From Ascidia mentula (Eukaryota; Chordata; Ascidiacea; Phlebobranchia; Ascidiidae): DNA of 64,000 nucleotides. Each line of letters opens with the position of its first letter. The first letter of the stretch is position 1. The notes under the pieces were generated by a model. That model searched no databases and had not been told where the DNA came from. It saw nothing but the letters and a program-made list of their open reading frames with translations. Position numbers and translations under genes: made by a program. The stretch covers positions 13,885,001 to 13,949,000 of the forward strand of contig OX387197.1 in assembly GCA_947561715.1 (NCBI GenBank), read 5' to 3'. Below, piece by piece: positions 1 through 64,000 of the stretch.

Positions 1-377
1 ATGTTGAAATAGGTGCACTTTTATTTTAGAGATTATTGCAAATGTCTAAAATCTGCACTCCTCCTGGTGATAATTGCAAAACCCGACTTCAACTGAAGAA
101 TATTAAAAGTTTCTCTTGCAGTTAAAGATATAAAGAATCCAGTATTTCGGACGAATTTTTTTGCATCAAATCCAAACAGTCAAACATTGCTAAACTCCGA
201 CTCCATTCACTCGTGGACTTCGGTTTCTGTACAACTCTGACGCTAACGCGAGGCCATCCAAGAATATGTTTGAATTTTTCGACGTTGGGACCAGTTTGAT
301 TGTCCAAGTTTTGACACCAAAAAGCATAAAATTTGACTTTGCAGAAAAAGCAACCTTCGGGTCACAGACCGGCGCCA

Positions 378-596
378 TTTATTGCAACACCATTTCAATA
401 ATGCATGACAAAGCAAATAACACATGTGTATGAAAAAGTCATTCAAAATCGTAGGTAACTAAGTAGCTTTCAGGGAACTTTTGTGATGGGTCTTCTATAC
501 TTTGACGTGAAAGGTCTAAAAACCTTCCAAAAAGGCCCAAAACAATCTTTACATGGTCATCCACTGTCATGAAAAAGGCCTGCCAGTTTGGGTTTC
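378..596 (-). other. Minus-strand terminal-exon-like segment with poly(A) signal
   Basis: Reading the minus strand from about 620, a pyrimidine-rich tract ends in a TTTTTCAG acceptor at 597-598. A frame then runs open from 596 to a TGA at 439-441, giving about 52 residues beginning NPNWQAFFMTVDDH and ending ESYLVTYDFE. An AATAAA signal follows at 378-383 on the minus strand. This is the layout of a last exon with its 3' UTR. The frame needs phase 1 input, and I found no upstream exon in the unit that supplies it, so it may be a captured gene 3' end. The family is not recognised. Equivalent stop-codon ends lie at 5990, 11542, 17084, 22637, 28216, 33782, 39347, 44898, 49520, 55069 and 60634. 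The frame stays open in every copy, with a few amino acid changes such as V to A in unit 6 and Q to L in units 8 and 12. Confidence 0.3.
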
Positions 597-725
597 CTGA
601 AAAACAACAACAAAGCATTGACATTAGTACAACTGGAATAATCAATGCACACAGCAGTCGGATCATTCCATGTTGAATCACCAAAAAATGACCTTCTATA
701 CCCTTACACTTAAAAAGTACAGTGG

Positions 726-1126
726 CACAGTCACACATGCCAAATTTTGTTTTTAAAGGTGATATTGCAAGGAAATTAAATATACCCCCTCCAACTGTTT
801 GATAAGTTTCAGTTATGAGATGGACCTAAAAATTGAACATCTGATAACCCCCGCACCACGCCCGACAAGGTGTATTTCGGGGTCATAAAAAAGATCAATA
901 GGTCATTGCAATAAGGAAACAAAAAGTTAAAAACTAATTACAGATATAGGATCTGTGTTCAATTCCTTTTCAACCAACACCAATGTTATCAAAATTAACC
1001 CAGTAGTTTTCAAAATACAGGGGTTTAAAAATCCCAATTTCGACCAAAAAGGAAAGTTTGAGAGAAAGTTTGATAACTCCCAAACTACTTTTCACATTGG
1101 ACTGAAATTTGGCATGTGTGGCTGTG
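726..1126. repeat. 22-nt inverted repeat enclosing AT-rich spacer
   Basis: The left arm at 726-747 reads CACAGTCACACATGCC followed by AAATTT. The right arm at 1105-1126 is its reverse complement with one mismatch. The arms are 357 nt apart. They could be two oppositely oriented insertions of one dispersed repeat or the ends of a small fold-back element. No target-site duplication is evident. The enclosed DNA shows no convincing gene; the 76-codon plus-strand frame at 955-1185 has no splice or initiation context I trust. Confidence 0.5.
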
Positions 1127-1463
1127 TACTCACCCAAAACAGATTACAATGTCTCATAATATGCGTTATGGCTTTGCAGCTTTAAAAAATACCTAAAACC
1201 GTAAAAATGAAAATGTTTTGCCATGTTTTGTTAAACTTTGCATAGTTTCTCTACCTATAGATGTTTATAAGATTTCCTACAGGATGTTTTGTATCTAGTG
1301 TTCTCATTTATTCTGTATGTTTGCAGTCATCTTCCGCATTTGCAAACATTTTAGTAGGGCTTTTTATTGATTGTATTGTTACGAGAGTGATAGTTAAACA
1401 TTTACTTTTAATATAAATCTCATTGCCAGCAATTTTCGGACAAACATACTATCGGCACTATGT
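1127..1463. other. Non-coding AT-rich spacer
   Basis: No gene is supported here on either strand. On the minus strand there is an AATAAA (plus-strand TTTATT at 1363-1368), about 100 nt past the stop of the weak minus-strand candidate gene at 1464. On the minus strand there is also a strong donor-like GTGAGT near 1131. Confidence 0.5.
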
Positions 1464-2326
1464 TTATCGAAAACATACAGTTTCGAAGCATTCAATGCAT
1501 GGAAGGTAATCATGCAGCAAATGTCCTTTCATAAGATGAGAAAGATCTTTCCTAGAAATTCACCAACAATGCAGCATGATTTTGAAAATTATATGACTTA
1601 TGCTGATGATCAGTTTTTCTCCAGACTGAAATCTCAAATCCGCAGTGTTAGAGCCAATCTGTTTTTATAATTGAGTGCACTTTTTTTAGTAGATCTTACA
1701 CGTCGTATAGATAAATGCAATTACTGCCAAAAACATTCTGTTGTCAAAGATATTACCTTACCGTTGTCTCAGTATTTCATTGTCACTGCGGCACACCATA
1801 AAACCACTTGAACACAAAATATGGCTGCATTTCATTGAGTTAAAACATTTTCAATCTAATTTCCTTTCAAAAGTTTACCATTAAGGCACAGAGTATGACT
1901 TTACGAACTATTCAAATCACAGTTGTGGGACTGTACTTGCGTCCAGCAGTACAGCAGTAGACTACTGCAGACTCCAGGCTCTTATTGGCGTGTGCAATCA
2001 AGCGTAACTTTGTGCGTTTTTTTTAACACACGCTTTAAGAAACTATAACGGGTGCATCACCTTCTGCGTCAATTTGCCTTCTTTTATCAGCAGTTGGGAT
2101 TACTGACTGATTTCATTTTTGAATCAATTAAATCCCCTGGATATTTCTTTTCATTTAATTATACTCTGCCACAGTAAGAACTGTCGAGCTTTGCCATTTT
2201 TTTCCATGTTTCTCTTGCTTACGCGCCACATGTTGGGATACCAAATAGAAAGTGGTCAAACCAAGCAGCAAACTTGATTACGAGATATAAACAAACACTT
2301 TGCCTGTGTGCACGCACAAAAATCAT
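1464..2326 (-). CDS. Candidate two-exon small gene, divergent from the main gene
   Basis: On the minus strand an exon runs from an ATG at 2326 down to 2223 and ends at a GTAAGC donor in phase 2. A second exon starts at 1551 after a TTTCTAG acceptor, joins in the matching phase, and stops with TAA at 1464. Together they give 63 residues, starting MIFVRAHRQS and including FAAWFDHFLFGIPTCGA and HLLHDYLPCIECFE. A minus-strand AATAAA lies at 1363-1368. A very good acceptor (pyrimidine tract ending CCCTCAG at 2336-2337) lies just upstream of the ATG, so the first exon may instead be internal. No family is recognised. Substitutions between copies look mostly amino-acid changing (two in unit 2, one in unit 6), which argues against strong constraint. 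Equivalent spans: 7015-7878, 12567-13429, 18110-18972, 23662-24525, 29232-30094, 34806-35667, 40372-41234, 45924-46786, 50545-51407, 56093-56954, 61657-62519. Confidence 0.25.
1954..1968. repeat. Short palindrome GCAGTAG-N-CTACTGC
   Basis: Two 7-nt arms flank a single centre base, which is A in unit 1 and G in the other units I read. It lies inside the intron of the minus-strand candidate and about 0.5 kb upstream of the main gene. It could be a dimeric protein-binding site, but nothing else supports that. Confidence 0.3.
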
Positions 2327-2339
2327 AAATGCAAACTGA

Positions 2340-2487
2340 GGGAAAGAAGAAACAAAGACAAGTCTATGACGTCACATTGCTCTCATTAATCCCATGGCAG
2401 CTGGCAGTCTAGTAAGCAATTTTTGCTACTTTTTTGTTGTTGATCGCTAAAGAAGTTTGAATTTTACGGAGTATTTTATCACTGGAA
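2340..2487 (+). promoter_or_regulatory. Putative promoter with perfect CRE palindrome
   Basis: TGACGTCA, the full consensus for CREB/ATF-type bZIP factors, lies at 2367-2374, 114 nt upstream of the main gene ATG. A CAGCTG E-box follows at 2398-2403. No TATA box is obvious. The CRE is unchanged in all twelve units, for example 7919-7926 in unit 2. It sits between the plus-strand ATG (2488) and the weak minus-strand ATG (2326), so it could be bidirectional. Promoter function is inferred from position and motif only. Confidence 0.45.
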
Positions 2488-5194
2488 ATGGCTTTATTTT
2501 GCTTCGGTACAGGTTTCTGCCTGTCAGTAAAAAGGTGAGAGATTTGCATACCGATGTTTTAATTGCTGTGCTTGTAATATTATAGGGGACTTTTATTTGT
2601 ATGACATATTGAGTTGATACGCAAATTGTTGGCCCCTTTAATTTCAAGCAGTTTCGTGCTCGAATAAGTATTGTCTTTTGCAGGGCTTGGAAAACCGTGT
2701 CGTTGCCTGTACTTGGAAAAGTAAGTCTCATATACCTAATGACTGTGGATTTTATCCCCGCAAAGGCCTTCAAATTTCTGTGAATACATAATGTTGTGTT
2801 CGTTACAACTTCACAAAAAATCTCAATGTAGCAAGTCATGCTCATTCTTGAGTCGTTCATATTTGAGGTTGCATGCCACCGACAACCCTGCTTATTGGTC
2901 ATTGTGAAACATCAGTTTCTGTTTTATTTTTTTAATTCGAATGGTTTATCTTTAGAAAACCAGGTTTGGAGGTGCGACTATCGCGACTGGTAGTGGTCTT
3001 CCCAAATGTCGTGTTATCGGTAAGCGTCGGGTGCAACATATCGCATGAACATTGTAAAATCACTATGACGTCGTTGTATAGATTTTAAGTTGGAGAACAC
3101 GGAAAGTTTTGGAAATCGGGAAGCCAGATGCAAGCGGAAGACTTCAAATGCACGTGGTAAGCTCGGAACGTAGCAAATATCGGTTAAATCAAATTGACTG
3201 AATTGAAGGCCGCATACCTGTGTTTCTATTAAAATATGTTTCGCCGGCGGGACATGCCCACTTTGTAGTCCTCTGGCGGCACAATATAAAGAGGACGTCA
3301 CAAAGGAAAGTTTTTCATAATTGTTTGTTGCTGTGTGCTCTGCAATGTACCAAATTAGAGGCCCATTAATGAGTCACCAGCCCTAGGAACTGTTTAAACA
3401 GAGGATTTTTGGATTTGATTGCCATGCAGGTGCTTATACCGAGTTTTGTTTTACAGGCCAGGTTGTATCGCAACGATGCGAAAATACACTCCACATCCCG
3501 GCGGTTTGGAAGCAACCTTTACCATTGAAGATCTCGATGGTGGTTTTCTTGCAGACCGGACGTGTATCCCGAAACCCGGCCAAGTTTATTACACCAGAGG
3601 TTTTCGGCGAGACAATTTTTGGGATCTTGTCGTTGATCATTAGGTCGCTGGGCCGATGTGGTGATGTTGAAAAAGCTGATTGTTGGGCACTAAAACCCGG
3701 TGACGGCCCACCAGTCGCTGTTTCTCTTCAAGACAACAACATCATTGACTCGGGGCGACATACAAAATTATCACCAAGCAAACTCGGCCGCTCCCCTATT
3801 ACAACAACCTGTTACCCATCTAGCGTAAAGGCTACCAAGTCTTCAGGGTACAAACAACTCAGTCCACGTGGTTTGATGGAAATCATCAATAGGGTTGGAA
3901 ACGACTCGAATAATGGCGTGGACGAAGATTACGTGCCATGTGGAGGTCCAACAGAAGCGGATTGGCTGGAGTATTACAAGGCAGAAAAAGCTGCGCAACG
4001 TTCTCACTCCATGCAAAATCTTCGTCCAAAAGTAAAGGAATTTCCTGATCGGTTGATGCACAGTCACAAAACAGTCGTTCATTTTATCAGGTACCTCGAT
4101 TGGGGAAACGTAAACAGCATGGCGACGTAACCGGCAAAACACTTGAGAATGGAAAGACTCCAAATATCTCCGTCACGTTCGGTAAGCCATAAGCATGGAG
4201 GATAATTGTTTGTGTTTTTGCGATGGTAATAAAATTGACCCATTAGCCGCCGTGTTGGCAAAGAACAAAATATAACGTCACCGGCGACCTACGGTAAGTT
4301 CGAAATTAGAGATAAGGAATAAAAGTGGAATGTACACTTGCTCAAAAATTTCGCTAACGGGCGCATATCGCTATTTCTATGAAAATCAGTTTCGGTGGTG
4401 GGAAATGCCCAACCGTGTAGACCTCTGTCACAATGGAATGAGTACGTCACAGAGCAAACCAGCAATGCATGGGGGTCAATTTGACGGTTGAATGAGCGCA
4501 TATGCGTGTGCTGTGTCATAGCGAACTTTAGGGTGTTTGGGGTAGTTTTAGTGGGGTTTTGGGCTATTTCAATCAGGTAGTACTTGGTGGTGGGAAACAA
4601 GCGGAAGAGTCGTCAGGTGCATTAGGGCACAGGGCCTTGTAAACAGGATTTCTGCAATTTAATACACATGTAGGTCCTAAAGTTTTAACCACTGTTTGAT
4701 ACTTTACAGGACAAGTTGTTTCGTCTCCAAATCGAAAACTCGGCCGCTCCCCGATTACAACCAGTTACACATATGGCGTGAAGACCACGGCGTCTAAACA
4801 CCTCAGTCCACGCAGTTTGATTGAAATCATCGACAGAGTCGGAAACGAGTCACTCAATGAGGCGGACGAAGATTACGTACCAGGCCAAGGTCCAACCGAA
4901 GAGGATTGGTTGGAATATTACAAGGCAGAAAAAGGTCTGCACTCCTCAAACAACAGAATCGTGGAGTTGCCGGAAAATAAGTCGATGTCAGAAGGTAATG
5001 GAGATGCGCAGAGTCGCACTGAAAGAAGTGTCCGTTTCAAGCTGCCTTCAGGACAAATTGTAAGCCCTTGCAAGTCTAATTCCCTTCTCGGCTATCATGT
5101 CCAGTTTGGCATTAACACGATGGGGAATGTGGTTGGGTCAAAACGCAAGAAGAGTTTTCTTCCAAAACCTTCTGCAAGGAAAAGCTTCTATTAG
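2488..5194 (+). CDS. Six-exon gene, unit 1; 432-aa protein with duplicated module
   Basis: Exons 2488-2534, 2684-2720, 2956-3019, 3457-4031, 4091-4181 and 4710-5194 have GT-AG borders and phases 2, 0, 1, 0 and 1. They total 1299 nt, or 432 codons plus TAG. The ATG is the first in frame, starting MALFCFGTGFCLSVK. Two 45-residue modules (184-228 and 303-347) share 34 residues, including LSPR, DEDYVP and DWLEYYKAEK. Each is preceded by KLGRSPITT and by an LGK...GQVVS segment (exons 2/3 and 5). A third GQIVS lies near the basic C terminus (GSKRKKSF). No signal peptide, membrane span or known domain is evident, and the family is not recognised. LSPR and RSPITT are possible proline-directed phosphosites. 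The 59-nt intron 4 is inferred because it restores frame and module homology; without it exon 4 would end at the TAA at 4128. Alleles G149, P240, S365. Confidence 0.65.
3211..3307 (+). promoter_or_regulatory. Intron 3 element with TATAAA and GACGTCAC, paralogous to intron 5
   Basis: This intron stretch matches 4362-4455 in intron 5 over most of its length. Shared parts include TTTCTAT, AAAAT, GTTTCG, GGGAAATGCCCA (GGGACATGCCCA in unit 1), CCTCTG and CGTCACA. Here it holds TATAAA at 3285-3290 and GACGTCAC at 3294-3301, so it could be an internal promoter driving transcripts that start before exon 4. Equally, it may simply be carried along by the internal duplication of the gene. Splice sites around it are intact. 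Confidence 0.4.
3476..3643 (+). other. Alternative-frame ORF inside exon 4 (55 codons)
   Basis: A second frame overlaps exon 4, from ATG 3476 to TAG 3641-3643. It reads MRKYTPHPGGLEATF and later IEDLDGGFLADRTC. It looks as protein-like as the main frame over this stretch, which has no counterpart in the paralogous exon 6. It is intact in all twelve units. The main frame is preferred because it runs 192 codons and joins the modules in phase. A product starting after the TATAAA at 3285 could use this frame, but there is no direct evidence. Confidence 0.2.
4032..4090 (+). other. Intron 4 (59 nt)
   Basis: Starts AAA|GTAAAG and ends TTTTATCAG|GTACC. Removing it joins ...NLRPK to VPRLGKRKQHG in phase 0 and bypasses the in-frame TAA at 4128-4130. 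The downstream sequence then resembles the LGK...GQVVS segment of exons 2 and 3. It is the shortest intron of the gene. The base at 4027, in the codon before the last codon of exon 4, is C, A or G in different units (P, Q or R at residue 240). Confidence 0.6.
4247..4293 (+). pseudogene. Decayed third copy of the short module exon, in intron 5
   Basis: A 47-nt stretch bounded by CCCATTAG and CG|GTAAGT resembles exon 5: CGTGTTGGCAAAGAACAAAA here against CGATTGGGGAAACGTAAACA there, and ACGTCACCGGCGA against ACGTAACCGGCAA. The first half matches exon 5 in one frame (RRVGK) and the second half in another (NVTGDL), so it carries a frameshift and is shorter. Spliced after exon 5 from its AG it meets TAA at once, so it is probably skipped or acts as a poison exon. 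It occurs in every unit except 9, where it is deleted. Confidence 0.5.
4362..4455 (+). promoter_or_regulatory. Intron 5 element paralogous to intron 3 element
   Basis: Counterpart of 3211-3307. It keeps TTTCTATGAAAAT, GTTTCGGTGGTGGGAAATG, CCTCTG and TACGTCAC but has lost the TATAAA. Both elements lie between an LGK-type short exon and a GQVVS exon. This supports duplication of a block made of short exon, intron and long exon. A regulatory role is speculative. Confidence 0.35.
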
Positions 5195-5316
5195 GAATTC
5201 AAAACGGGAAAATAGAAACCAACGTTTCCTCTTTACCTTTCTAATAGTGCCAAGGCAGTAGCAGCTATATGTCGATTCAATTGTTCAAAAAAAATTTCGC
5301 TCGATTTTGCAATGTG

Positions 5317-5322
5317 AATAAA
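5317..5322 (+). terminator. Poly(A) signal AATAAA of the main gene
   Basis: AATAAA lies 122 nt past the stop codon and is followed by a TG-rich stretch (TTAGTGTGTATTTTG), the usual arrangement of an animal poly(A) site. It is present in all eleven complete units. Confidence 0.6.
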
Positions 5323-5418
5323 TTAGTGTGTATTTTGCAAAGTCGTTTGAATCGATGCACTATAACAGTCAATCTCCGCTGACCTATAAGGGCAATTGCG
5401 ATATCCAAATTCAATCCT

Positions 5419-5474
5419 ACCTCTCTCCGGCTGGGATACACTGTAGAAAGGAGTTGAATCAATTGGAGAGAGGT
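5419..5474. repeat. 10-bp inverted repeat downstream of the poly(A) site
   Basis: ACCTCTCTCC at 5419-5428 and GGAGAGAGGT at 5465-5474 are perfect complements around a 36-nt loop. One arm is changed in unit 9, at about 44334. The rest of the unit end (5475-5551) and the next unit start hold no feature I can support. Confidence 0.4.
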
Positions 5475-5551
5475 GTGTAATAGACATGTATTGGACGACC
5501 CCGCAAAAAAAACAAGGTTTTAGGAGTCACGCGTGAAAGGTGGTTACTTTA

Positions 5552-8500
5552 ATGTTGAAATAGGTGCACTTTTTTTTTGGAGATTATTGCAAATGTCTAA
5601 AATCTGCACTCCTCCTGGTGATAATTGCAAAACTTGACTTCAACTGAAGAATATTAAAAGTTTCTCTTGCAGTTAAAGATATAAAGAATCCAGTATTTCG
5701 GACGAATTTTTTTGCATCAAATCCAAACAGTCAAACATTGCTAAACTCCGACTCCATTCACTCGTGGACTTCGGTTTCTGTACAACTCTGACGCTAACGC
5801 GAGGCCATCCAAGAATATGTTTGAATTTTTCGACGTTGGGACCAGTTTGATTGTCCAAGTTTTGACACCAAAAAGCATAAAATTTGACTTTGCAGAAAAA
5901 GCAACCTTCGGGTCACAGACCGGCGCCATTTATTGCAACACCATTTCAATAATGCATGACAAAGCAAATAACACATGTGTATGAAAAAGTCATTCAAAAT
6001 CGTAGGTAACTAAGTAGCTTTCAGGGAACTTTTGTGATGGGTCTTCTATACTTTGACGTGAAAGGTCTAAAAACCTTCCAAAAAGGCCCAAAACAATCTT
6101 TACATGGTCATCCACTGTCATGAAAAAGGCCTGCCAGTTTGGGTTTCCTGAAAAACAACAACAAAGCATTGACATTAGTACAACTGGAATAATCAATGCA
6201 CACAGCAGTCGGATCATTCCATGTTGAATCACCAAAAAATGACCTTCTATACCCTTACACTTAAAAAGTACAGTGGCACAGTCACACATGCCAAATTTTG
6301 TTTTTAAAGGTGATATTGCAAGGAAATTAAATATACCCCCTCCAACTGTTTGATAAGTTTCAGTTATGAGATGGACCTAAAAATTGAACATCTGATAACC
6401 CCCGCACCACGCCCGACAAGGTGTATTTCGGGGTCATAAAAAAGATCAATAGGTCATTGCAATAAGGAAACAAAAAGTTAAAAACTAATTACAGATATAG
6501 GATCTGTGTTCAATTCCTTTTCAACCAACACCAATGTTATCAAAATTAACCCAGTAGTTTTCAAAATACAGGGGTTTAAAAATCCCAATTTCGACCAAAA
6601 AGGAAAGTTTGAGAGAAAGTTTGATAACTCCCAAACTACTTTTCACATTGGACTGAAATTTGGCATGTGTGGCTGTGTACTCACCCAAAACAGATTACAA
6701 TGTCTCATAATATGCGTTATGGCTTTGCAGCTTTAAAAAATACCTAAAACCGTAAAAATGAAAATGTTTTGCCATGTTTTGTTAAACTTTGCATAGTTTC
6801 TCTACCTATAGATGTTTATAAGATTTCCTACAGGATGTTTTGTATCTAGTGTTCTCATTTATTCTGTATGTTTGCAGTCATCTTCCGCATTTGCAAACAT
6901 TTCAGTAGGGCTTTTTATTGATTGTATTGTTACGAGAGTGATAGTTAAACATTTACTTTTAATATAAATCTCATTGCCAGCAATTTTCGGACAAACATAC
7001 TATCGGCACTATGTTTATCGAAAACATACAGTTTCGAAGCATTCAATGCATGGAAGGTAATCATGCAGCAAATGTCCTTTCATAAGATGAGAAAGATCTT
7101 TCCTAGAAATTCACCAACAATGCAGCATGATTTTGAAAATTATATGACTTATGCTGATGATCAGTTTTTCTCCAGACTGAAATCTCAAATCCGCAGTGTT
7201 AGAGCCAATCTGTTTTTATAATTGAGTGCACTTTTTTTAGTAGATCTTACACGTCGTATAGATAAATGCAATTACTGCCAAAAACATTCTGTTGTCAAAG
7301 ATATTACCTTACCGTTGTCTCAGTATTTCATTGTCACTGCGGCACACCATAAAACCACTTGAACACAAAATATGGCTGCATTTCATTGAGTTAAAACATT
7401 TTCAATCTAATTTCCTTTCAAAAGTTTACCATTAAGGCACAGAGTATGACTTTACGAACTATTCAAATCACAGTTGTGGGACTGTACTTGCGTCCAGCAG
7501 TACAGCAGTAGGCTACTGCAGACTCCAGGCTCTTATTGGCGTGTGCAATCAAGCGTAACTTTGTGCGTTTTTTTTAACACACGCTTTAAGAAACTATAAC
7601 GGGTGCATCACCTTCTGCGTCAATTTGCCTTCTTTTATCAGCAGTTGGGATTACTGACTGATTTCATTTTTGAATCAATTAAATCCCCTGGATATTTCTT
7701 TTCATTTAATTATACTCTGCCACAGTAAGAACTGTCGAGCTTTGCCATTTTTTTTCCATGTTTCTCTTGCTTACGCGCCACATGTTGGGATACCAAATAG
7801 AAAGTGGTCAAACCAAGCAGCAAACTTGATTACGAGATATATACAAACACTTTGCCTGTGTGTACGCACAAAAATCATAAATGCAAACTGAGGGAAAGAA
7901 GAAACAAAGACAAGTCTATGACGTCACATTGCTCTCATTAATCCCATGGCAGCTGGCAGTCTAGTAAGCAATTTTTGCTACTTTTTTGTTGTTGATCGCT
8001 AAAGAAGTTTGAATTTTACGGAGTATTTTATCACTGGAAATGGCTTTATTTTGCTTCGGTACAGGTTTCTGCCTGTCAGTAAAAAGGTGAGAGATTTGCA
8101 TACCGATGTTTTAATTGCTGTGCTTGTAATATTATAGGGGACTTTTATTTGTATGACATATTGAGTTGATACGCAAATTGTTGGCCCCTTTAATTTCAAG
8201 CAGTTTCGTGCTCGAATAAGTATTGTCTTTTGCAGGGCTTGGAAAACCGTGTCGTTGCCTGTACTTGGAAAAGTAAGTCTCATATACCTAATGACTGTGG
8301 ATTTTAACCCCGCAAAGGCCTTCAAATTTCTGTGAATACATAATGTTGTGTTCGTTACAACTTCACAAAAAATCTCAATGTAGCAAGTCATGCTCATTCT
8401 TGAGTCGTTCATATTTGAGGTTGCATGCCACCGACAACCCTGCTTATTGGTCATTGTGAAACATCAGTTTCTGTTTTATTTTTTTAATTCGAATGGTTTA

Positions 8501-11103
8501 TCTTTAGAAAACCAGGTTTGGAGGTGCGACTATCGCGACTGGTAGTGGTCTTCCCAAATGTCGTGTTATCGGTAAGCGTCGGGTGCAACATATCGCATGA
8601 ACATTGTAAAATCACTATGACGTCGTTGTATAGATTTTAAGTTGGAGAACACGGAAAGTTTTGGAAATCGGGAAGCCAGATGCAAGCGGAAGACTTCAAA
8701 TGCACGTGGTAAGCTCGGAACGTAGCAAATATCGGTTAAATCAAATTGACTGAATTGAAGGCCGCATACCTGTGTTTCTATTAAAATACGTTTCGCCGGA
8801 GGGAAATGCCCACTTTGTAGTCCTCTGGCGGCACAATATAAAGAGGACGTCACAAAGGAAAGTTTTTCATAATTGTTTGTTGCTGTGTGCTCTGCAATGT
8901 ACCAAATTAGAGGCCCATTAATGAGTCACCAGCCCTAGGAACTGTTTAAACAGAGGATTTTTGGATTTGATTGCCATGCAGGTGCTTATACCGAGTTTTG
9001 TTTTACAGGCCAGGTTGTATCGCAACGATGCGAAAATACACTCCACATCCCGGCGGTTTGGAAGCAACCTTTACCATTGAAGATCTCGATGGTGGTTTTC
9101 TTGCAGACCGGACGTGTATCCCGAAACCCGGCCAAGTTTATTACACCAGAGGTTTTCGGCGAGACAATTTTTGGGATCTTGTCGTTGATCATTAGGTCGC
9201 TGGGCCGATGTGGTGATGTTGAAAAAGCTGATTGTTGGGCACTAAAACCCGGTGACGGCCCACCAGTCGCTGTTTCTCTTCAAGACAACAACATCATTGA
9301 CTCGGGGCGACATACAAAATTATCACCAAGCAAACTCGGCCGCTCCCCTATTACAACAACCTGTTACCCATCTAGCGTAAAGGCTACCAAGTCTTCAGGG
9401 TACAAACAACTCAGTCCACGTGGTTTGATGGAAATCATCAATAGGGTTGGAAACGACTCGAATAATGGCGTGGACGAAGATTACGTGCCATGTGGAGGTC
9501 CAACAGAAGCGGATTGGCTGGAGTATTACAAGGCAGAAAAAGCTGCGCAACGTTCTCACTCCATGCAAAATCTTCGTCAAAAAGTAAAGGAATTTCCTGA
9601 TCGGTTGATGCACAGTCACAAAACAGTCGTTCATTTTATCAGGTACCTCGATTGGGGAAACGTAAACAGCATGGCGACGTAACCGGCAAAACACTTGAGA
9701 ATGGAAAGACTCCAAATATCTCCGTCACGTTCGGTAAGCCATAAGCATGGAGGATAATTGTTTGTGTTTTTGCGATGGTAATAAAATTGACCCATTAGCC
9801 GCCGTGTTGGCAAAGAACAAAATATAACGTCACCGGCGACCTACGGTAAGTTCGAAATTAGAGATAAGGAATAAAAGTGGAATGTACACTTGCTCAAAAA
9901 TTTCGCTAACGGACGCATATCGCTATTTCTATGAAAATCAGTTTCGGTGGTGGGAAATGCCCAACCGTGTAGACCTCTGTCACAATGGAATGAGTACGTC
10001 ACAGAGCAAACCAGCAATGCATGGGGGTCAATTTGACGGTTGAATGAGCGCATATGCGTGTGCTGTGTCATAGCGAACTTTAGGGTGTTTGGGGTAGTTT
10101 TAGTGGGGTTTTGGGCTATTTCAATCAGGTAGTACTTGGTGGTGGGAAACAAGCGGAAGAGTCGTCAGGTGCATTAGGGCACAGGGCCTTGTAAACAGGA
10201 TTTCTGCAATTTAATACACATGTAGGTCCTAAAGTTTTAACCACTGTTTGATACTTTACAGGACAAGTTGTTTCGTCTCCAAATCGAAAACTCGGCCGCT
10301 CCCCGATTACAACCAGTTACACATATGGCGTGAAGACCACGGCGTCTAAACACCTCAGTCCACGCAGTTTGATTGAAATCATCGACAGAGTCGGAAACGA
10401 GTCACTCAATGAGGCGGACGAAGATTACGTACCAGGCCAAGGTCCAACCGAAGAGGATTGGTTGGAATATTACAAGGCAGAAAAAGGTCTGCACTCCTCA
10501 AACAACAGAATCGTGGAGTTGCCGGAAAATAAGTCGATGTCAGAAGGTAATGGAGATGCGCAGAGTCGCACTGAAAGAAGTGTCCGTTTCAAGCTGCCTT
10601 CAGGACAAATTGTAAGCCCTTGCAAGTCTAATTCCCTTCTCGGCTATCATGTCCAGTTTGGCATTAACACGATGGGGAATGTGGTTGGGTCAAAACGCAA
10701 GAAGAGTTTTCTTCCAAAACCTTCTGCAAGGAAAAGCTTCTATTAGGAATTCAAAACGGGAAAATAGAAACCAACGTTTCCTCTTTACCTTTCTAATAGT
10801 GCCAAGGCAGTAGCAGCTATATGTCGATTCAATTGTTCAAAAAAAATTTCGCTCGATTTTGCAATGTGAATAAATTAGTGTGTATTTTGCAAAGTCGTTT
10901 GAATCGATGCACTATAACAGTCAATCTCCGCTGACCTATAAGGGCAATTGCGATATCCAAATTCAATCCTACCTCTCTCCGGCTGGGATACACTGTAGAA
11001 AGGAGTTGAATCAATTGGAGAGAGGTGTGTAATAGACATGTATTGGACGACCCCGCAAAAAAAACAAGGTTTTAGGAATCACGCGTGAAAGGTGGTTACT
11101 TTA
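5552..11103. repeat. Repeat unit 2 (5552 nt)
   Basis: Same layout as unit 1. It starts with the TTTTTTTTGG variant near 5573 instead of TTATTTTAG, a marker shared with units 4, 9 and 10. One extra T in the run near 7750 shifts the later half by one. Confidence 0.95.
8040..10746 (+). CDS. Six-exon gene, unit 2; intact
   Basis: Exons 8040-8086, 8236-8272, 8508-8571, 9009-9583, 9643-9733 and 10262-10746. The reading frame is complete and encodes 432 residues. The only amino-acid difference seen from unit 1 is Q in place of P at residue 240. The CRE lies at 7919-7926 and the poly(A) signal at 10869. Function unknown, as for unit 1. Confidence 0.63.
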
Positions 11104-27419: not shown

Positions 27420-27777
27420 GAATTCAAAACGGGAAAATAGAAACTGAACGTTTCCGCTTTACCTTTCTAATAGTGCCAAGGCAGTAGCAGCTATATGTCG
27501 ATTCAATTGTTCAAAAAAAATTTCGCTCGATTTTGCAATGTGAATAAATTAGTGTGTATTTTGCAAAGTCGTTTGAATCGATGCACTATAACAGTCAATC
27601 TCCGCTGACCTGTAAGGGCAATTGCGATATCCAAATTCAATCCTACCTCTCTCCGGCTGGGATACACTGTAGAAAGGAGTTGAATCAATTGGAGAGAGGT
27701 GTGTAATAGACATGTATTGGACGACCCCGCAAAAAAAACAAGGTTTTAGGAGTCACGCGTGAAAGGTGGTTACTTTA

Positions 27778-47400: not shown

Positions 47401-49081
47401 ATGGTTTATCTTTAGAAAACCAGGTTTGGAGGTGCGACTATCGCGACTGGTAGTGGTCTTCCCAAATGTCGTGTTATCGGTAAGCGTCGGGTGCAACATA
47501 TCGCATGAACATTGTAAAATCACTATGACGTCGTTGTATAGATTTTAAGTTGGAGAACACGGAAAGTTTTGGAAATCGGGAAGCCAGATGCAAGCGGAAG
47601 ACTTCAAATGCACGTGGTAAGCTCGGAACGTAGCAAATATCGGTTAAATCAAATTGACTGAATTGAAGGCCGCATACCTGTGTTTCTATTAAAATACGTT
47701 TCGCCGGCGGGAAATGCCCACTTTGTAGTCCTCTGGCGGCACAATATAAAGAGGACGTCACAAAGGAAAGTTTTTCATAATTGTTTGTTGCTGTGTGCTC
47801 TGCAATGTACCAAATTAGAGGCCCATTAATGAGTCACCAGCCCTAGGAACTGTTTAAACAGAGGATTTTTGGATTTGATTGCCATGCAGGTGCTTATACC
47901 GAGTTTTGTTTTACAGGCCAGGTTGTATCGCAACGATGCGAAAATACACTCCACATCCCGGCGGTTTGGAAGCAACCTTTACCATTGAAGATCTCGATGG
48001 TGGTTTTCTTGCAGACCGGACGTGTATCCCGAAACCCGGCCAAGTTTATTACACCAGAGGTTTTCGGCGAGACAATTTTTGGGATCTTGTCGTTGATCAT
48101 TAGGTCGCTGGGCCGATGTGGTGATGTTGAAAAAGCTGATTGTTGGGCACTAAAACCCGGTGACGGCCCACCAGTCGCTGTTTCTCTTCAAGACAACAAC
48201 ATCATTGACTCGGGGCGACATACAAAATTATCACCAAGCAAACTCGGCCGCTCCCCTATTACAACAACCTGTTACCCATCTAGCGTAAAGGCTACCAAGT
48301 CTTCAGGGTACAAACAACTCAGTCCACGTGGTTTGATGGAAATCATCAATAGGGTTGGAAACGACTCGAATAATGGCGTGGACGAAGATTACGTGTTTTG
48401 ATTACGTACCAGGCCAAGGTCCAACCGAATAGGATTGGTTGGAATATTACAAGGCAGAAAAAGGTCTGCACTCCTCAAACAACAGAATCGTGGAGTTGCC
48501 GGAAAATAAGTCGATGTTAGAAGGTAATGGAGATGCGCAGAGTCGCACTGAAAGAAGTGTCCGTTTCAAGCTGCCTTCAGGACAAATTGTAAGCCCTTGC
48601 AAGTCTAATTCCCTTCTCGGCTATCATGTCCAGTTTGGCATTAACACGATGGGGAATGTGGTTGGGTCAAAACGCAAGAAGAGTTTTCTTCCAAAACCTT
48701 CTGCAAGGAAAAGCTTCTATTAGGAATTCAAAACGGGAAAATAGAAACTGAACTTTTCCGCTTTACCTTTCTAATAGTGCCAAGGCAGTAGCAGCTATAT
48801 GTCGATTCAATTGTTCAAAAAAAATTTCGCTCGATTTTGCAATGTGAATAAATTAGTGTGTATTTTGCAAAGTCGTTTGAATCGATGCACTATAACAGTC
48901 AATCTCCGCTGACCTATAAGGGCAATTGCGATATCCAAATTCAATCCTACCTCTCTCCGGCTGGGATACACTGTAGAAAGGAGTTGAATCAATTGGAGAG
49001 AGGTGTGTAATAGACATGTATTGGACGACCCCGCAAAAAAAACAAGGTTTTAGGAGTCACGCGTGAAAGGTGGTTACTTTA
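44460..49081. repeat. Repeat unit 9 (4622 nt), internally deleted
   Basis: Sister of unit 4 but 931 nt shorter. The missing DNA runs from exon 4 to exon 6 of the gene, and the length difference agrees exactly with a 935-nt deletion plus a 4-nt insertion. It also shows CTATCC and TGAATG changes at the hairpin of unit 8's end, near 44334 and 44367. Confidence 0.95.
46948..48723 (+). pseudogene. Gene copy, unit 9; exon 4 fused to exon 6 by deletion
   Basis: Exons 1-3 at 46948-46994, 47144-47180 and 47416-47479 are normal, and exon 4 starts at 47917. After GAAGATTACGTG (ending 48395), four T bases (48396-48399) lead straight into GATTACGTACC of exon 6. Introns 4 and 5, exon 5, the decayed exon and the first part of exon 6 are gone. 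The frame stops at once with TGA (48399-48401), after DEDYVF, at about 210 residues. A further TAG lies at 48430 in the exon 6 frame, absent from all other units. Confidence 0.8.
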
Positions 49082-54631: not shown

Positions 54632-57600
54632 ATGTTGAAATAGGTGCACTTTTATTTTAGAGATTATTGTAAATGTCTAAAATCTGCACTCCTCCTGGTG
54701 ATAATTGCAAAACCCGACTTCAACTGAAGAATATTAAAGTTTCTCTTGCAGTTAAAGATATAAAGAATCCAGTATTTCGGACGAATTTTTTTGCATCTAA
54801 TCCAAAAAGTCAAACATTGCTAAACTCCGACTCCATTCACTCGTGGACTTCGGTTTCTGTACAACTCTGACGCTAACGCGAGGCCATCCAAGAATATGTT
54901 TGAATTTTTCGACGTTGGGACCAGTTTGATTGTCCAAGTTTTGACACCAAAAAGCATAAAATTTGACTTTGCAGAAAAAGCAACCTTCGGGTCACAGACC
55001 GGCGCCATTTATTGCAACACCATTTCAATAATGCATGACAAAGCAAATAACACATGTGTATGAAAAAGTCATTCAAAATCGTAGGTAACTAAGTAGCTTT
55101 CAGGGAACTTTTGTGATGGGTCTTCTATACTTTGACGTGAAAGGTCTAAAAACCTTCCAAAAAGGCCCAAAACAATCTTTACATGGTCATCCACTGTCAT
55201 GAAAAAGGCCTGCCAGTTTGGGTTTCCTGAAAAACAACAACAAAGCATTGACATTAGTACAACTGGAATAATCAATGCACACAGCAGTCGGATCATTCCA
55301 TGTTGAATCACCAAAAAATGACCTTCTATACCCTTACACTTAAAAAGTACGGTGGCACAGTCACACATGCCAAATTTTGTTTTTAAAGGTGATATTGCAA
55401 GGAAATTAAATATACCCCCTCCAACTGTTTGATAAGTTTCAGTTATGAGATGGACCTAAAAATTGAACATCTGATAACCCCCGCACCACGCCCGACAAGG
55501 TATATTTCGGGGTCATAAAAAAGATCAATAGGTCATTGCAATAAGGAAACAAAAAGTTAAAAACTAATTACAGATATAGGATCTGTGTTCAATTCCTTTT
55601 CAACCAACACCAATGTTATCAAAATTAACCCAGTAGTTTTCAAAATACAGGGGTTTAAAAATCCCAATTTCGACCAAAAAGGAAAGTTTGAGAGAAAGTT
55701 TGATAACTCCCAACTACTTTTCACATTGGACTGAAATTTGGCATGTGTGGCTGTGTACTCACCCAAAACAGATTACAATGTCTCATAATATGCGTTGTGG
55801 CTTTGCTGCTTTAAAAAACACCTAAAACCGTAAAAATGAAAATGTTTTGCCATATTTTGTTAAACTTTGCATAGTTTCTCTACCTATAGATGTTTATAAG
55901 ATTTCCTACAGGATGTTTTGTATCTAGTGTTCTCATTTATTCTGTATGTTTGCAGTCATCTTCCGCATTTGCAAACATTTTAGTAGGGCTTTTTATTGAT
56001 TGTATTGTTACGAGAGTGATAGTTAAACATTTACTTTTAATATAAATCTCATTGCCAGCAATTTTCGGACAAACATACTATCGGCACTATGTTTATCGAA
56101 AACATACAGTTTCGAAGCATTCAATGCATGGAAGGTAATCATGCAGCAAATGTCCTTTCATAAGATGAGAAAGATCTTTCCTAGAAATTCACCAACAATG
56201 CAGCATGATTTTGAAAATTATATGACTTATGCTGATGATCAGTTTTTCTCCAGACTGAAATCTCAAATCCGCAGTGTTAGAGCCAATCTGTTTTTATAAT
56301 TGAGTGCACTTTTTTTAGTAGATCTTACACGTCGTATAGATAAATGCAATTACTGCCAAAAACATTCTGTTGTCAAAGATATTACCTTACCGTTGTCTCA
56401 GTATTTCATTGTCACTGCGGCACACCATAAAACCACTTGAACACAAAATATGGCTGCATTTCATTGAGTTAAAACATTTTCAATCTAATTTCCTTTCAAA
56501 AGTTTACCATTAAGGCACAGAGTATGACTTTACGAACTATTCAAATCACAGTTGTGGGACTGTACTTGCGTCCAGCAGTACAGCAGTAGGCTACTGCAGA
56601 CTCCAGGCTCTTATTGGCATGTGCAATCAAGCGTAACTTTGTGCGTTTTTTTTAACACACGCTTTAAGAAACTATAACGGGTGCATCACCTTCTGCGTCA
56701 ATTTGCCTTCTTTTATCAGCAGTTGGGATTACTGACTGATTTCATTTTTGAATCAATTAAATCCCCTGGATATTTCTTTTCATTTAATTATACTCTGCCA
56801 CAGTAAGAACTGTCGAGCTTTGCCATTTTTTCCATGTTTCTCTTGCTTACGCGCCACATGTTGGGATACCAAATAGAAAGTGGTCAAACCAAGCAGCAAA
56901 CTTGATTACGAGATATAAACAAACACTTTGCCTGTGTGCACGCACAAAAATCATAAATGCTAACTGAGGGAAAGAAGAAACAAAGACAAGTCTATGACGT
57001 CACATTGCTCTCATTAATCCCATGGCAGCTGGCAGTCTAGTAAGCAATTTTTGCTACTTTTTTGTTGTTGATCGCTAAAGAAGTTTGAATTTTACGGAGT
57101 ATTTTATCACTGGAAATGGCTTTATTTTGCTTCGGTACAGGTTTCTGCCTGTCAGTAAAAAGGTGAGAGATTTGCATACCGATGTTTTAATTGCTGTGCT
57201 TGTAATATTATAGGGGACTTTTATTTGTATGACATATTGAGTTAATACGCAAATTGTTGGCCCCTTTAATTTCAAGCAGTTTCGTAAGTATTGTCTTTTG
57301 CAGGGCTTGGAAAACCGTGTCGTTGCCTGTACTTGGAAAAGTAAGTCTCATATACTTAATGACTGTGGATTTTAACCCCGCAAAGGCCTTCAAATTTCTG
57401 TGAATACATAATGTTGTGTTCGTTACAACTTCACAAAAAATCTCAATGTAGCAAGTCATGCTCATTCTTGAGTCGTTCATATTTGAGGTTGCATGCCACC
57501 GACAACCCTGCTTATTGGTCATTGTGAAACATCAGTTTCTGTTTTATTTTTTTAATTCGAATGGTTTGTCTTTAGAAAACCAGGTTTGGAGGTGCGACTA

Positions 57601-60196
57601 TCGCGACTGGTAGTGGTCTTCCCAAATGTCGTGTTATCGGTAAGCGTCGGGTGCAACATATCGCATGAACATTGTAAAATCACTATGACGTCGTTGTATA
57701 GATTTTAAGTTGGAGAACACGGAAAGTTTTGGAAATCGGGAAGCCAGATGCAAGCGGAAGACTTCAAATGCACGTGGTAAGCTCGGAACGTAGCAAATAT
57801 CGGTTAAATCAAATTGACTGAATTGAAGGCCGCATCCCTGTGTTTCTATTAAAATACGTTTCGCCGGAGGGAAATGCCCACTTTGTAGTCCTCTGGCGGC
57901 ACAATATAAAGAGGACGTCACAAAGGAAAGTTTTTCATAGTTGTTTGTTGCTGTGTGCTCTGCAATGTTCCTGCAATTACTTTTTCCTCCTGTTGACAAA
58001 TTAGAGGCCCATTAATGAGTCACCAGCCCTAGGAACTGTTTAAACAGAGGATATTTGGATTTGATTGCCATGCAGGTACTTATACCGAGTTTTGTTTTAC
58101 AGGCCAGGTTGTATCGCAACGATGCGAAAATACACTCCACATCCCGGCGGTTTGGAAGCAACCTTTACCATTGAAGATCTCGATGGTGGTTTTCTTGCAG
58201 ACCGGACGTGTATCCCGAAACCCGGCCAAGTTTATTACACCAGAGGTTTTCGGCGAGACAATTTTTGGGATCTTGTCGTTGATCATTAGGTCGCTGGGCC
58301 GATGTGGTGATGTTGAAAAAGCTGATTGTTGGGCACTAAAACCCGGTGACGGCCCACCAGTCGCTGTTTCTCTTCAAGACAACAACATCATTGACTCGGA
58401 GCGACATACAAAATTATCACCAAGCAAACTCGGCCGCTCCCCTATTACAACAACCTGTTACCCATCTAGCGTAAAGGCTACCAAGTCTTCAGGGTACAAA
58501 CAACTCAGTCCACGTGGTTTGATGGAAATCATCAATAGGGTTGGAAACGACTCGAATAATGGCGTGGACGAAGATTACGTGCCATGTGGAGGTCCAACAG
58601 AAGCGGATTGGCTGGAGTATTACAAGGCAGAAAAAGCTGCGCAACGTTCTCACTCCATGCAAAATCTTCGTCAAAAAGTAAAGGAATTTCCTGATCGGTT
58701 GATGCACAGTCACAAAACAGTCGTTCATTTTATCAGGTACCTCGATTGGGGAAACGTAAACAGCATGGCGACGTAACCGGCAAAACACTTGAGAATGGAA
58801 AGACTCCAAATATCTCCGTCACGTTCGGTAAGCCATAAGCATGGAGGATAATTGTTTGTGTTTTTGCGATGGTAATAAAATTGACCCATTAGCCGCCGTG
58901 TTGGCAAAGAACAAAATATAACGTCACCGGCGACCTACGGTAAGTTCGAAATTAGAGATAAGGAATAAAAGTGGAATGTACACTTGCTCAAAAATTTCGC
59001 TAACGGACGCATATCGCTATTTCTATGAAAATCAGTTTCGGTGGTGGGAAATGCCCAACCGTGTAGACCTCTGTCACAATGGAATGAGTACGTCACAGAG
59101 CAAACCAGCAATGCATGGGGGTCAATTTGACGGTTGAATGAGCGCATATGCGTGTGCTGTGTCATAGCGAACTTTAGGGTGTTTGGGGTAGTTTCAGTGG
59201 GGTTTTGGGCTATTTCAATCAGGTAGTACTTGGTGGTGGGAAACAAGCGGAAGAGTCGTCAGGTGCATTAGGTCACAGGGCCTTGTAAACAGGATTTCTG
59301 CAATTTAATACACATGTAGGTCCTAAAGTTTTAACCACTGTTTGATACTTTACAGGACAAGTTGTTTCGTCTCCAAATCGAAAACTCGGCCGCTCCCCGA
59401 TTACAACCAGTTACACATATGGCGTGAAGACCATGGCGTCTAAACACCTCAGTCCACGCAGTTTGATTGAAATCATCGACAGAGTCGGAAACGAGTCACT
59501 CAATGAGGCGGACGAAGATTACGTACCAGGCCAAGGTCCAACCGAAGAGGATTAGTTGGAATATTACAAGGCAGAAAAAGGTCTGCACTCCTCAAACAAC
59601 AGAATCGTGGAGTTGCCGGAAAATAAGTCGATGTTAAAAGGTAATGGAGATGCGCAGAGTCGCACTGAAAGAAGTGTCCGTTTCAAGCTGCCTTCAGGAC
59701 AAATTGTAAGCCCTTGCAAGTCTAATTCCCTTCTCGGCTATCATGTCCAGTTTGGCATTAACACGATGGGGAATGTGGTTGGGTCAAAACGCAAGAAGAG
59801 TTTTCTTCCAAAACCTTCTGCAAGGAAAAGCTTCTATTAGGAATTCAAAACAGGAAAATAGAAACTGAACGTTTCTGCTTTACCTTTCTAATAGTGCCAA
59901 GGCAGTAGCAGCTATATGTCGATTCAATTGTTCAAAAAAAATTTCTCGATTTTGCAATGTGAATAAATTAGTGTGTATTTTGCAAAGTCGTTTGAATCGA
60001 TGCACTATAACAGTCAATCTCCGCTAACCTATAAGGGCAATTGCGATATCCAAATTCAATCCTACCTCTCTCCGGCTGGGATACACTGTAGAAAGGAGTT
60101 GAATCAATTGGAGAGAGGTGTGTAATAGACATGTATTGGACGACCCCGCAAAAAAAACAAGGTTTTAGGAGTCACGCGTGAAAGGTGGTTACTTTA
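54632..60196. repeat. Repeat unit 11 (5565 nt), near-identical to unit 7
   Basis: Every marker listed for unit 7 recurs at +21287, including the small deletions and single-base changes. I saw no difference in the parts compared. Confidence 0.95.
57116..59840 (+). pseudogene. Gene copy, unit 11; nonsense at codon 338
   Basis: Exons 57116-57162, 57304-57340, 57576-57639, 58103-58677, 58737-58827 and 59356-59840. TAG 338 lies at 59553-59555. The alleles are the same as in unit 7 (E149, Q240, M298, L365, K366), and intron 1 has the same 8-nt loss. Confidence 0.6.
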
Positions 60197-63100
60197 ATGT
60201 TGAAATAGGTGCACTTTTATTTTAGAGATTATTGTAAATGTCTAAAATCTGCACTCCTCCTGGTGATAATTGCAAAACCCGACTTCAACTGAAGAATATT
60301 AAAGTTTCTCTTGCAGTTAAAGATATAAAGAATCCAGTATTTCGGACGAATTTTTTTGCATCTAATCCAAACAGTCAAACATTGCTAAACTCCGACTCCA
60401 TTCACTCGTGGACTTCGGTTTCTGTACAACTCTGACGCTAACGCGAGGCCATCCAAGAATATGTTTGAATTTTTCGACGTTGGGACCAGTTTGATTGTAC
60501 AAGTTTTGACACCAAAAAGCATAAAATTTGACTTTGCAGAAAAAGCAACCTTCGGGTCACAGACCGGCGCCATTTATTGCAACACCATTTCAATAATGCA
60601 TGACAAAGCAAATAACACATGTGTATGATAAAGTCATTCAAAATCGTAGGTAACTAAGTAGCTTTCAGGGAACTTTTGTGATGGGTCTTCTATACTTTGA
60701 CGTGAAAGGTCTAAAAACCTTCCAAAAAGGCCCAAAACAATCTTTACATGGTCATCCACTGTCATGAAAAAGGCCAGCCAGTTTGGGTTTCCTGAAAAAC
60801 AACAACAAAGCATTGACATTAGTACAACTGGAATAATCAATGCACACAGCAGTCGGATCATTCCATGTTGAATCACCAAAAAATGACCTTCTATACCCTT
60901 ACACTTAAAAAGTACAGTGGCACAGTCACACATGCCAAATTTTGTTTTTAAAGGTGATATTGCAAGGAAATTAAATATACCCCCTCCAACTGTTTGATAA
61001 GTTTCAGTTATGAGATGGACCTAAAAATTGAACATCTGATAACCCGCACCACGCCCGACAAGGTGTATTTCGGGGTCATAAAAAAGATCAATAGGTCATT
61101 GCAATAAGGAAACAAAAAGTTAAAAACTAATTACAGATATAGGATCTGTGTTCAATTCCTTTTCAACCAACACCAATGTTATCAAAATTAACCCAGTAGT
61201 TTTCAAAATACAGGGGTTTAAAAATCCCAATTTCGACCAAAAAGGAAAGTTTGAGAGAAAGTTTGATAACTCCCAAACTACTTTTCACATTGGACTGAAA
61301 TTTGGCATGTGTGGCTGTGTACTCACCCAAAACAGATTACAATGTCTCATAATATGCGTTATGGCTTTGCAGCTTTAAAAAATACCTAAAACCGTAAAAA
61401 TGAAAATGTTTTGCCATGTTTTGTTAAACTTTGCATAGTTTCTCTACCTATAGATGTTTATAAGATTTCCTACAGGATGTTTTGTATCTAGTGTTCTCAT
61501 TTATTCTGTATGTTTGCAGTCATCTTCCGCATTTGCAAACATTTTAGTAGGGCTTTTTATTGATTGTATTGTTACGAGAGTGATAGTTAAACATTTACTT
61601 TTAATATAAATCTCATTGCCAGCAATTTTCGGACAAACATACTATCGGCACTATGTTTATCGAAAACATACAGTTTCGAAGCATTCAATGCATGGAAGGT
61701 AATCATGCAGCAAATGTCCTTTCATAAGATGAGAAAGATCTTTCCTAGAAATTCACCAACAATGCAGCATGATTTTGAAAATTATATGACTTATGCTGAT
61801 GATCAGTTTTTCTCCAGACTGAAATCTCAAATCCGCAGTGTTAGAGCCAATCTGTTTTTATAATTGAGTGCACTTTTTTTAGTAGATCTTACACGTCGTA
61901 TAGATAAATGCAATTACTGCCAAAAACATTCTGTTGTCAAAGATATTACCTTACCGTTGTCTCAGTATTTCATTGTCACTGCGGCACACCATAAAACCAC
62001 TTGAACACAAAATATGGCTGCATTTCATTGAGTTAAAACATTTTCAATCTAATTTCCTTTCAAAAGTTTACCATTAAGGCACAGAGTATGACTTTACGAA
62101 CTATTCAAATCACAGTTGTGGGACTGTACTTGCGTCCAGCAGTACAGCAGTAGGCTACTGCAGACTCCAGGCTCTTATTGGCGTGTGCAATCAAGCGTAA
62201 CTTTGTGCGTTTTTTTTAACACACGCTTTAAGAAACTATAACGGGTGCATCACCTTCTGCGTCAATTTGCCTTCTTTTATCAGCAGTTGGGATTACTGAC
62301 TGATTTCATTTTTGAATCAATTAAATCCCCTGGATATTTCTTTTCATTTAATTATACTCTGCCACAGTAAGAACTGTCGAGCTTTGCCATTTTTTTCCAT
62401 GTTTCTCTTGCTTACGCGCCACATGTTGGGATACCAAATAGAAAGTGGTCAAACCAAGCAGCAAACTTGATTACGAGATATAAACAAACACTTTGCCTGT
62501 GTGCACGCACAAAAATCATAAATGCAAACTGAGGGAAAGAAGAAACAAAGACAAGTCTATGACGTCACATTGCTCTCATTAATCCCATGGCAGCTGGCAG
62601 TCTAGTAAGCAATTTTTGCTACTTTTTTGTTGTTGATCGCTAAAGAAGTTTGAATTTTACGGAGTATTTTATCACTGGAAATGGCTTTATTTTGCTTCGG
62701 TACAGGTTTCTGCCTGTCAGTAAAAAGGTGAGAGATTTGCATACCGATGTTTTAATTGCTGTGCTTGTAATATTATAGGGGACTTTTATTTGTATGACAT
62801 ATTGAGTTGATACGCAAATTGTTGGCCCCTTTAATTTCAAGCAGTTTCGTGCTCGAATAAGTATTGTCTTTTGCAGGGCTTGGAAAACCGTGTCGTTGCC
62901 TGTACTTGGAAAAGTAAGTCTCATATACCTAATGACTGTGGATTTTAACCCCGCAAAGGCCTTCAAATTTCTGTGAATACATAATGTTGTGTTCGTTACA
63001 ACTTCACAAAAAATCTCAATGTAGCAAGTCATGCTCATTCTTGAGTCGTTCATATTTGAGGTTGCATGCCACCGACAACCCTGCTTATTGGTCATTGTGA

Positions 63101-64000
63101 AACATCAGTTTCTGTTTTATTTTTTTAATTCGAATGGTTTATCTTTAGAAAACCAGGTTTGGAGGTGCGACTATCGCGACTGGTAGTGGTCTTCCCAAAT
63201 GTCGTGTTATCGGTAAGCGTCGGGTGCAACATATCGCATGAACATTGTAAAATCACTATGACGTCGTTGTATAGATTTTAAGTTGGAGAACACGGAAAGT
63301 TTTGGAAATCGGGAAGCCAGATGCAAGCGGAAGACTTCAAATGCACGTGGTAAGCTCGGAACGTAGCAAATATCGGTTAAATCAAATTGACTGAATTGAA
63401 GGCCGCATACCTGTGTTTCTATTAAAATACGTTTCGCCGGCGGGAAATGCCCACTTTGTAGTCCTCTGGCGGCACAATATAAAGAGGACGTCACAAAGGA
63501 AAGTTTTTCATAATTGTTTGTTGCTGTGTGCTCTGCAATGTACCAAATTAGAGGCCCATTAATGAGTCACCAGCCCTAGGAACTGTTTAAACAGAGGATT
63601 TTTGGATTTGATTGCCATGCAGGTGCTTATACCGAGTTTTGTTTTACAGGCCAGGTTGTATCGCAACGATGCGAAAATACACTCCACATCCCGGCGGTTT
63701 GGAAGCAACCTTTACCATTGAAGATCTCGATGGTGGTTTTCTTGCAGACCGGACGTGTATCCCGAAACCCGGCCAAGTTTATTACACCAGAGGTTTTCGG
63801 CGAGACAATTTTTGGGATCTTGTCGTTGATCATTAGGTCGCTGGGCCGATGTGGTGATGTTGAAAAAGCTGATTGTTGGGCACTAAAACCCGGTGACGGC
63901 CCACCAGTCGCTGTTTCTCTTCAAGACAACAACATCATTGACTCGGGGCGACATACAAAATTATCACCAAGCAAACTCGGCCGCTCCCCTATTACAACAA
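60197..64000. repeat. Repeat unit 12 (first 3804 nt only)
   Basis: Counterpart of unit 8 at +21287, then +21285 after CCCCCGCACC became CCCGCACC near 61045. One further difference lies near 61866. It is cut by the window end, so the array continues. Confidence 0.95.
62681..64000 (+). CDS. Six-exon gene, unit 12; partial at window end
   Basis: Exons 62681-62727, 62877-62913 and 63149-63212 are complete. Exon 4 starts at 63650 and runs off the end. The frame is open as far as seen and carries G149, like unit 8. Whether residue 338 is intact cannot be seen. Confidence 0.6.

Follow-up and report, generated by a model that had tools for sequence, protein, structure and literature searches.

Repeat unit and gene model

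The window, that is, the whole stretch of 64,000 nucleotides of Ascidia mentula chromosome 1 analysed here (13,885,001-13,949,000), consists throughout of a ~5.55-kb unit repeated in tandem: a blastn self-comparison of the 64 kb leaves a non-array remainder of 0. In the mitochondrial contig of the same assembly (19,461 bases), conserved glycines of cox1 are translated as serine by the invertebrate code, in agreement with the ascidian code. Unit 1 (positions 1-5551) aligns end to end with the rest of the window at 98.5-99.7% identity, as a sequence-only reading of this DNA had proposed for the entire window; the exception is unit 9, which matches unit 1 in two pieces of 99.1% and 93.5%. The window comprises 11 complete units, one of them shortened (44460-49081), and a twelfth that is left incomplete where the window stops. 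A mafft alignment of the 12 window units contains 109 substitution columns, a few of which reflect misalignment of unit 9. The units were delimited by blastn self-comparison, together with alignment for units 5, 6, 7, 9, 10 and 11 (W363* denotes a nonsense codon in exon 7):

1..5551, + strand, unit 1, reference copy
5552..11103, + strand, unit 2, 99.7% identity
11104..16645, + strand, unit 3
16646..22198, + strand, unit 4
22199..27777, + strand, unit 5, 26-bp intron insert (also in units 6, 7 and 11)
27778..33344, + strand, unit 6, W363* in exon 7, 26-bp intron insert
33345..38909, + strand, unit 7, W363*, 26-bp intron insert
38910..44459, + strand, unit 8
44460..49081, + strand, unit 9, 4622 bp, 931-bp deletion
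49082..54631, + strand, unit 10, W363*
54632..60196, + strand, unit 11, W363*, 26-bp intron insert
60197..64000, + strand, unit 12, cut by the window end

A period of this size is beyond the limit of 500 in Tandem Repeats Finder, and the program reports nothing in the window. The 5' noncoding part of unit 1 contains a 22-nt inverted repeat (726-747 / 1105-1126, 95% complementary), which may be what is left of a MITE or a small foldback element.

Each unit had been proposed to carry a multi-exon gene with a poly(A) site. For unit 1, splice sites and reading frame support a seven-exon model with GT-AG introns, whose frame stays open over 457 codons and is followed by an AATAAA motif at 5317:

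2488..2534, + strand, exon 1 with ATG start (model; ATG and splice sites conserved in all 18 full copies)
2684..2720, + strand, exon 2 (kept in full copies)
2956..3019, + strand, exon 3 (kept in full copies)
3082..3156, + strand, exon 4, 75 nt, optional
3457..4031, + strand, exon 5, domain copy 1
4091..4181, + strand, exon 6, after a 59-bp intron
4710..5194, + strand, exon 7, domain copy 2, basic C-terminus, stop codon TAG
5317..5322, + strand, AATAAA, candidate poly(A) signal (sequence motif)

The 432-residue product described previously derives from the same model with exon 4 left out, the full model encoding 457 aa. If the fifth intron (59 bp) is left unspliced, the frame ends at 4130. The longest stop-free run spans 247 codons; a single one of 1000 first-order Markov simulations gives a run as long. 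The predicted product is basic (pI 9.7) and has a KRKK stretch near its C-terminal end. A possible eighth exon (4247-4293) was excluded from the model because it breaks the frame. Open frames of 121-154 aa on the minus strand, which recur because the units are alike, were set aside; two of them were tested and gave no Pfam match above the cut-off.

A domain of ~66 residues is present twice in the product, with 50 of 77 aligned residues identical. At the DNA level, sequence comparison identifies two pairs of intragenic repeats, the second being the intronic part of an old internal duplication:

3780..3997, + strand, intragenic repeat copy 1, 77% DNA identity to 4736-4941
4736..4941, + strand, intragenic repeat copy 2
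3208..3309, + strand, intronic part of the internal duplication, 75% identity to 4359-4458
4359..4458, + strand, intronic part of the internal duplication, second copy

Exon 5 also contains a segment of about 100 residues (about 3471-3773) that the duplicated exon 7 lacks and that represents either an insertion in frame or an intron missed by the model.

Searches for a known family gave no significant match for the gene in Pfam, PDB or Rfam. In the Pfam scan the sole family reported at E up to 10 is FUBP_C (E = 0.31, 8 residues), and we take this match, as well as an acetyltransferase match in PDB (E = 2.2), to be due to chance. Rfam (E up to 1) returned 0 matches on both strands of window positions 1-11200, which cover two units. 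Likewise, no other DWLEYYK-like motif was detected with a degenerate-codon pattern designed to skip the array, and no relative of the gene was detected in a scan of viral contigs. The description of the window as a gene-bearing macrosatellite whose gene belongs to an unknown family is supported.

Extent of the array and copy number

On chromosome 1, which is 27,920,005 bp long, the nearly unbroken array spans about 13,745,934 to 14,525,003 (~0.78 Mb), and with a kilobase-size tandem unit that continues over hundreds of kb it constitutes a macrosatellite. Copies were counted in the whole genome with short exon patterns. The exon-2 pattern (up to 3 mismatches) occurs 135 times, 133 forward and 2 reverse, and the 100 matches listed are on chromosome 1. 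The exon-7 pattern with the tryptophan codon occurs 120 times (119 forward, 1 reverse; 100 listed, on chromosome 1), and its variant with the stop codon TAG occurs 15 times (all listed, all on chromosome 1), again a total of 135. A protein search with the 66-residue domain, in which the best 150 of 283 first-look candidates were scored, gives 136 exon-7-type domains (E ≤ 4e-36) and 14 exon-5-type domains (E about 1e-21), all on chromosome 1, with no candidate intermediate between the two types among the best 150 of 283. The earlier estimate of at least twelve copies is far too low, the genome-wide counts being 135-136.

As all 136 exon-7 domains are located on chromosome 1, the unit is seen on no other chromosome, and as far as the genome searches could see the array is found at no second locus. 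Any paralogue that resembles exon 7 more than the exon-5 copies do would be expected among the 150 of 283 candidates scored; more distant paralogues of the domain, including some with a changed motif, may exist.

Turnover and decay of the array

Interior copies are near-identical, with identity falling to about 96-97% in copies at the edges. In unit 9, 931 bp are missing between the two copies of the intragenic domain repeat, with the junction at a shared GATTACGT plus a few extra bases; the frame of this unit is lost, and a stop follows just past the deletion junction. On a larger scale, 22 consecutive spacings, together with the codon states, recur 26 units away at exactly 143,745 bp. The exon-2 variant follows the same pattern: the 18 listed units that carry it fall into two sets of 9, and each member of the first set has its partner in the second, 143,745 bp away. 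A smaller higher-order repeat is observed at 14,304,000-14,360,000 of chromosome 1, where 5 spacings recur at 27.8 kb. Near the right edge, at about 14,509,070, the units switch to the reverse strand and then back.

Both edges contain pieces of transposable elements. Left of 13,745,934 lies sequence with a match to DUF1759, which we take to be typical of BEL/Pao gag, and beyond it broken pieces of the unit extend back to 13,726,580. The BEL/Pao-like sequence (chromosome 1, 13,739,440-13,745,934) is situated between pieces of apparently one unit (unit positions 567 / 558), an arrangement that insertion of the retroelement into a unit would produce. The 10 kb right of 14,525,003 include a piece of a transposase (TNP-like_RNaseH_N). 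Two of the units examined contain DNA transposons. At about 14,373,779-14,384,246 of chromosome 1, a unit is interrupted by a 10.5-kb transposon that has a 9-bp target duplication, encodes Ulp1 peptidase and SWIM domains, and holds long minisatellite stretches with a period near 57 bp besides open frames; presumably it is MULE-like. A 6-kb transposon, which we assume to be CACTA-like, lies in another unit, where about 0.8 kb is also missing close by; it has an open frame of 799 codons and a weak match to Transposase_21 (E = 0.0019, below the cut-off).

The deletion in unit 9, the 143.7-kb internal duplication and the decayed edges point to unequal exchange. Going by this anatomy, unequal exchange and gene conversion would shuffle copy number and sequence, and such a process would keep the interior homogeneous while the edges decay and fill with transposons.

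Coding integrity and selection

Copies were compared over 18 full-length genes, drawn from 32 array matches in the DNA examined (~135 copies in the genome). This set leaves out 14 matches that are partial or lie at the edges, and four sets of edge sequences were analysed separately; selection for full length favours intact copies. We discarded a first count of unique coding changes (37 alignments; 59 replacement, 19 silent and 2 nonsense), since it included partial copies and a misaligned unit 9, the one with the deletion.

Taken as a model, the gene is well preserved: the ATG and all splice sites are kept in 18 of 18 full-length copies, coding indels amount to 0, and the full frame of 457 aa is open in 14 of the 18. 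The proposal of a gene in each unit therefore holds for the model, with the qualification that some copies are damaged. Among the 11 complete units of the window 6 encode 457 aa, 4 have W363*, and 1 is truncated by the deletion. The W363 nonsense codon is common to 15 of 135 copies genome-wide, with tryptophan in the other 120, and a TAG is found within 17 of the 136 exon-7 domains.

Two time scales of selection can be distinguished. The older one is recorded in the domain pair, whose 66 codons give dS = 0.57, dN = 0.15 and omega = 0.26 (95% bootstrap range 0.12-0.51). The low omega indicates that the domain was once constrained, and we infer purifying selection on the encoded protein at the time the pair diverged. 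The more recent one is recorded in the array copies. The 29 coding variants in the 18 copies comprise 22 replacement or nonsense and 7 silent changes, close to a neutral expectation of 72% (P = 0.84). Coding sites are less variable than introns and flanks (29 variants versus 48.5 expected, P = 0.027, 18 copies), and none of the 8 indel events falls in coding sequence, which makes up 47% of the aligned gene region.

No sign of constraint is seen in the edge sequences. In the right-most copy, 19 changes are replacements and 3 are silent, indel columns occur in the last exon, and divergence is alike in coding (22/1345) and intronic (21/1526) sites. The inverted block has 10 replacement changes, 0 silent ones and a 4-base coding deletion. 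The two left edge pieces have 9 replacement plus 1 nonsense versus 4 silent changes, and 2 versus 2, respectively. Neither the 18 copies nor the edges thus reveal selection acting on the protein at present. This is most simply read as redundancy: any one copy can drift almost freely, and homogenisation propagates beneficial and harmful variants alike. A gene that was formerly constrained and now evolves neutrally could, however, also be a dying one.

Interpretation of the array

The explanation we favour, and hold to be probable, is a gene-bearing macrosatellite at a single locus, with ~135 mostly head-to-tail copies that are individually dispensable. According to this explanation the protein was formerly under purifying selection and many current copies would now be redundant, so that substitutions in any one copy would be close to neutral. 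A subset of the open copies probably still makes the predicted protein, which is basic and possibly nuclear. Exons 1-4 are short and, as predicted exons, would weigh somewhat against this explanation.

The strongest competitor, which we regard as possible and distinctly less likely, is dosage-driven amplification, i.e., a high copy number selected for by a need for the product (in oocytes, sperm or tunic cells, for instance) or by germline conflict, as in ampliconic genes. The AATAAA after the stop codon of unit 1, the lack of coding indels in the 18 full copies, and the tryptophan codon kept in 120 of 135 copies at the one nonsense site counted are all compatible with a product that is needed. 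Human CT47 offers a parallel, being described as germline-limited in its expression (PMC3599962). Selection for dosage is difficult to reconcile with a neutral replacement-to-silent ratio and with one stop codon that has spread over 15 copies. Furthermore, conflict of the classical sex-linked kind is inapplicable to an animal whose genome note, as far as accessible, lists no sex chromosomes (PMC11109543).

A mainly structural or selfish nature of the array, such as that of a (peri)centromere of chromosome 1 with the gene as a passenger, appears unlikely. The array centre lies at 50.6% of chromosome 1, transposon pieces occur in both flanks, and the coding part evolves neutrally, all of which would suit such a role. 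The midpoint position hints at a centromere link, a weak lead when taken alone. Against a structural role stand the largely kept coding frame and the distribution of the unit, with all 136 exon-7 domains on chromosome 1 and no other chromosome seen to carry it. Typical centromeric satellites also have a unit length far from 5.55 kb.

An assembly artefact, in whole or in part, is very improbable: identities of up to 99.7% between copies and the 143,745-bp repeat, which matches over 22 consecutive spacings and could be a false duplication, invite the suspicion, but the copies differ by private substitutions, different transposon insertions, an inverted block and deletions, dynamics that unequal exchange fits and assembly stutter would hardly produce, and the genome note describes a HiFi long-read assembly (74x, QV 64.9, contig N50 11.9 Mb; PMC11109543).

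A more far-reaching reading is a long shot. In it, an orphan, formerly constrained tunicate gene would have become a chromosome-specific, mid-chromosome and possibly centromere-associated macrosatellite; its ~135 copies would be transcribed, and the protein would act in the germline or on the chromosome that carries the array, making this a selfish or drive-like array in a hermaphrodite without sex chromosomes. Solitary ascidians are hermaphrodites.

Comparison with known gene arrays

Mammalian TSPY and Drosophila Stellate, which were initially put forward as examples, are high-copy protein genes with an uncertain or germline role. They fit badly here. TSPY is characterized by a NAP-type domain and Y linkage, and the present array has neither, with weak FUBP_C as its only domain match and a location on chromosome 1. 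Stellate encodes a casein kinase 2 beta-like domain, which is absent as well: NAP/TSPY, CK2-beta (Stellate) and histone domains were not found in the Pfam scan at E up to 10. RNA and histone gene arrays likewise consist of head-to-tail, homogenised units, and they differ from the present array, which has no Rfam match and no histone domain. For Ascidia mentula, no sex chromosomes are listed in the genome note, as far as its text is available (PMC11109543). The mouse Laidx gene shares the high copy number of a protein gene with an uncertain or germline role, whereas its amplicon measures 229 kb (PMC7263670), versus the 5.55-kb unit found here.

The better comparison is with human macrosatellites such as RS447/USP17 and CT47. 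One source (PMC3599962) describes RS447 (USP17, 4.7 kb), CT47 (4.8 kb), D4Z4 (DUX4, 3.3 kb) and PRR20/FLJ40296 (6.6 kb), with arrays of a few to about a hundred units, and links contraction of D4Z4 to human disease. As in the Ascidia mentula array, a kilobase-size tandem unit carries a protein gene in each copy. In contrast to the human examples, the array belongs to a tunicate, its predicted protein is an unrelated orphan, and one assembled haplotype contains about 135 copies. Judged by its anatomy, the array is a tunicate member of the gene-bearing macrosatellites with an unrelated predicted protein. Among the open-licence papers searched, no published report of it was found in the comparative or ascidian literature.

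An assembled array of ~135 copies in a compact chordate genome allows the formation of such arrays, their homogenisation and the escape of their genes from selection to be studied directly, and the decayed edges and the old internal domain duplication add to its value for this purpose. If expressed, the array gene would represent a new orphan protein family.
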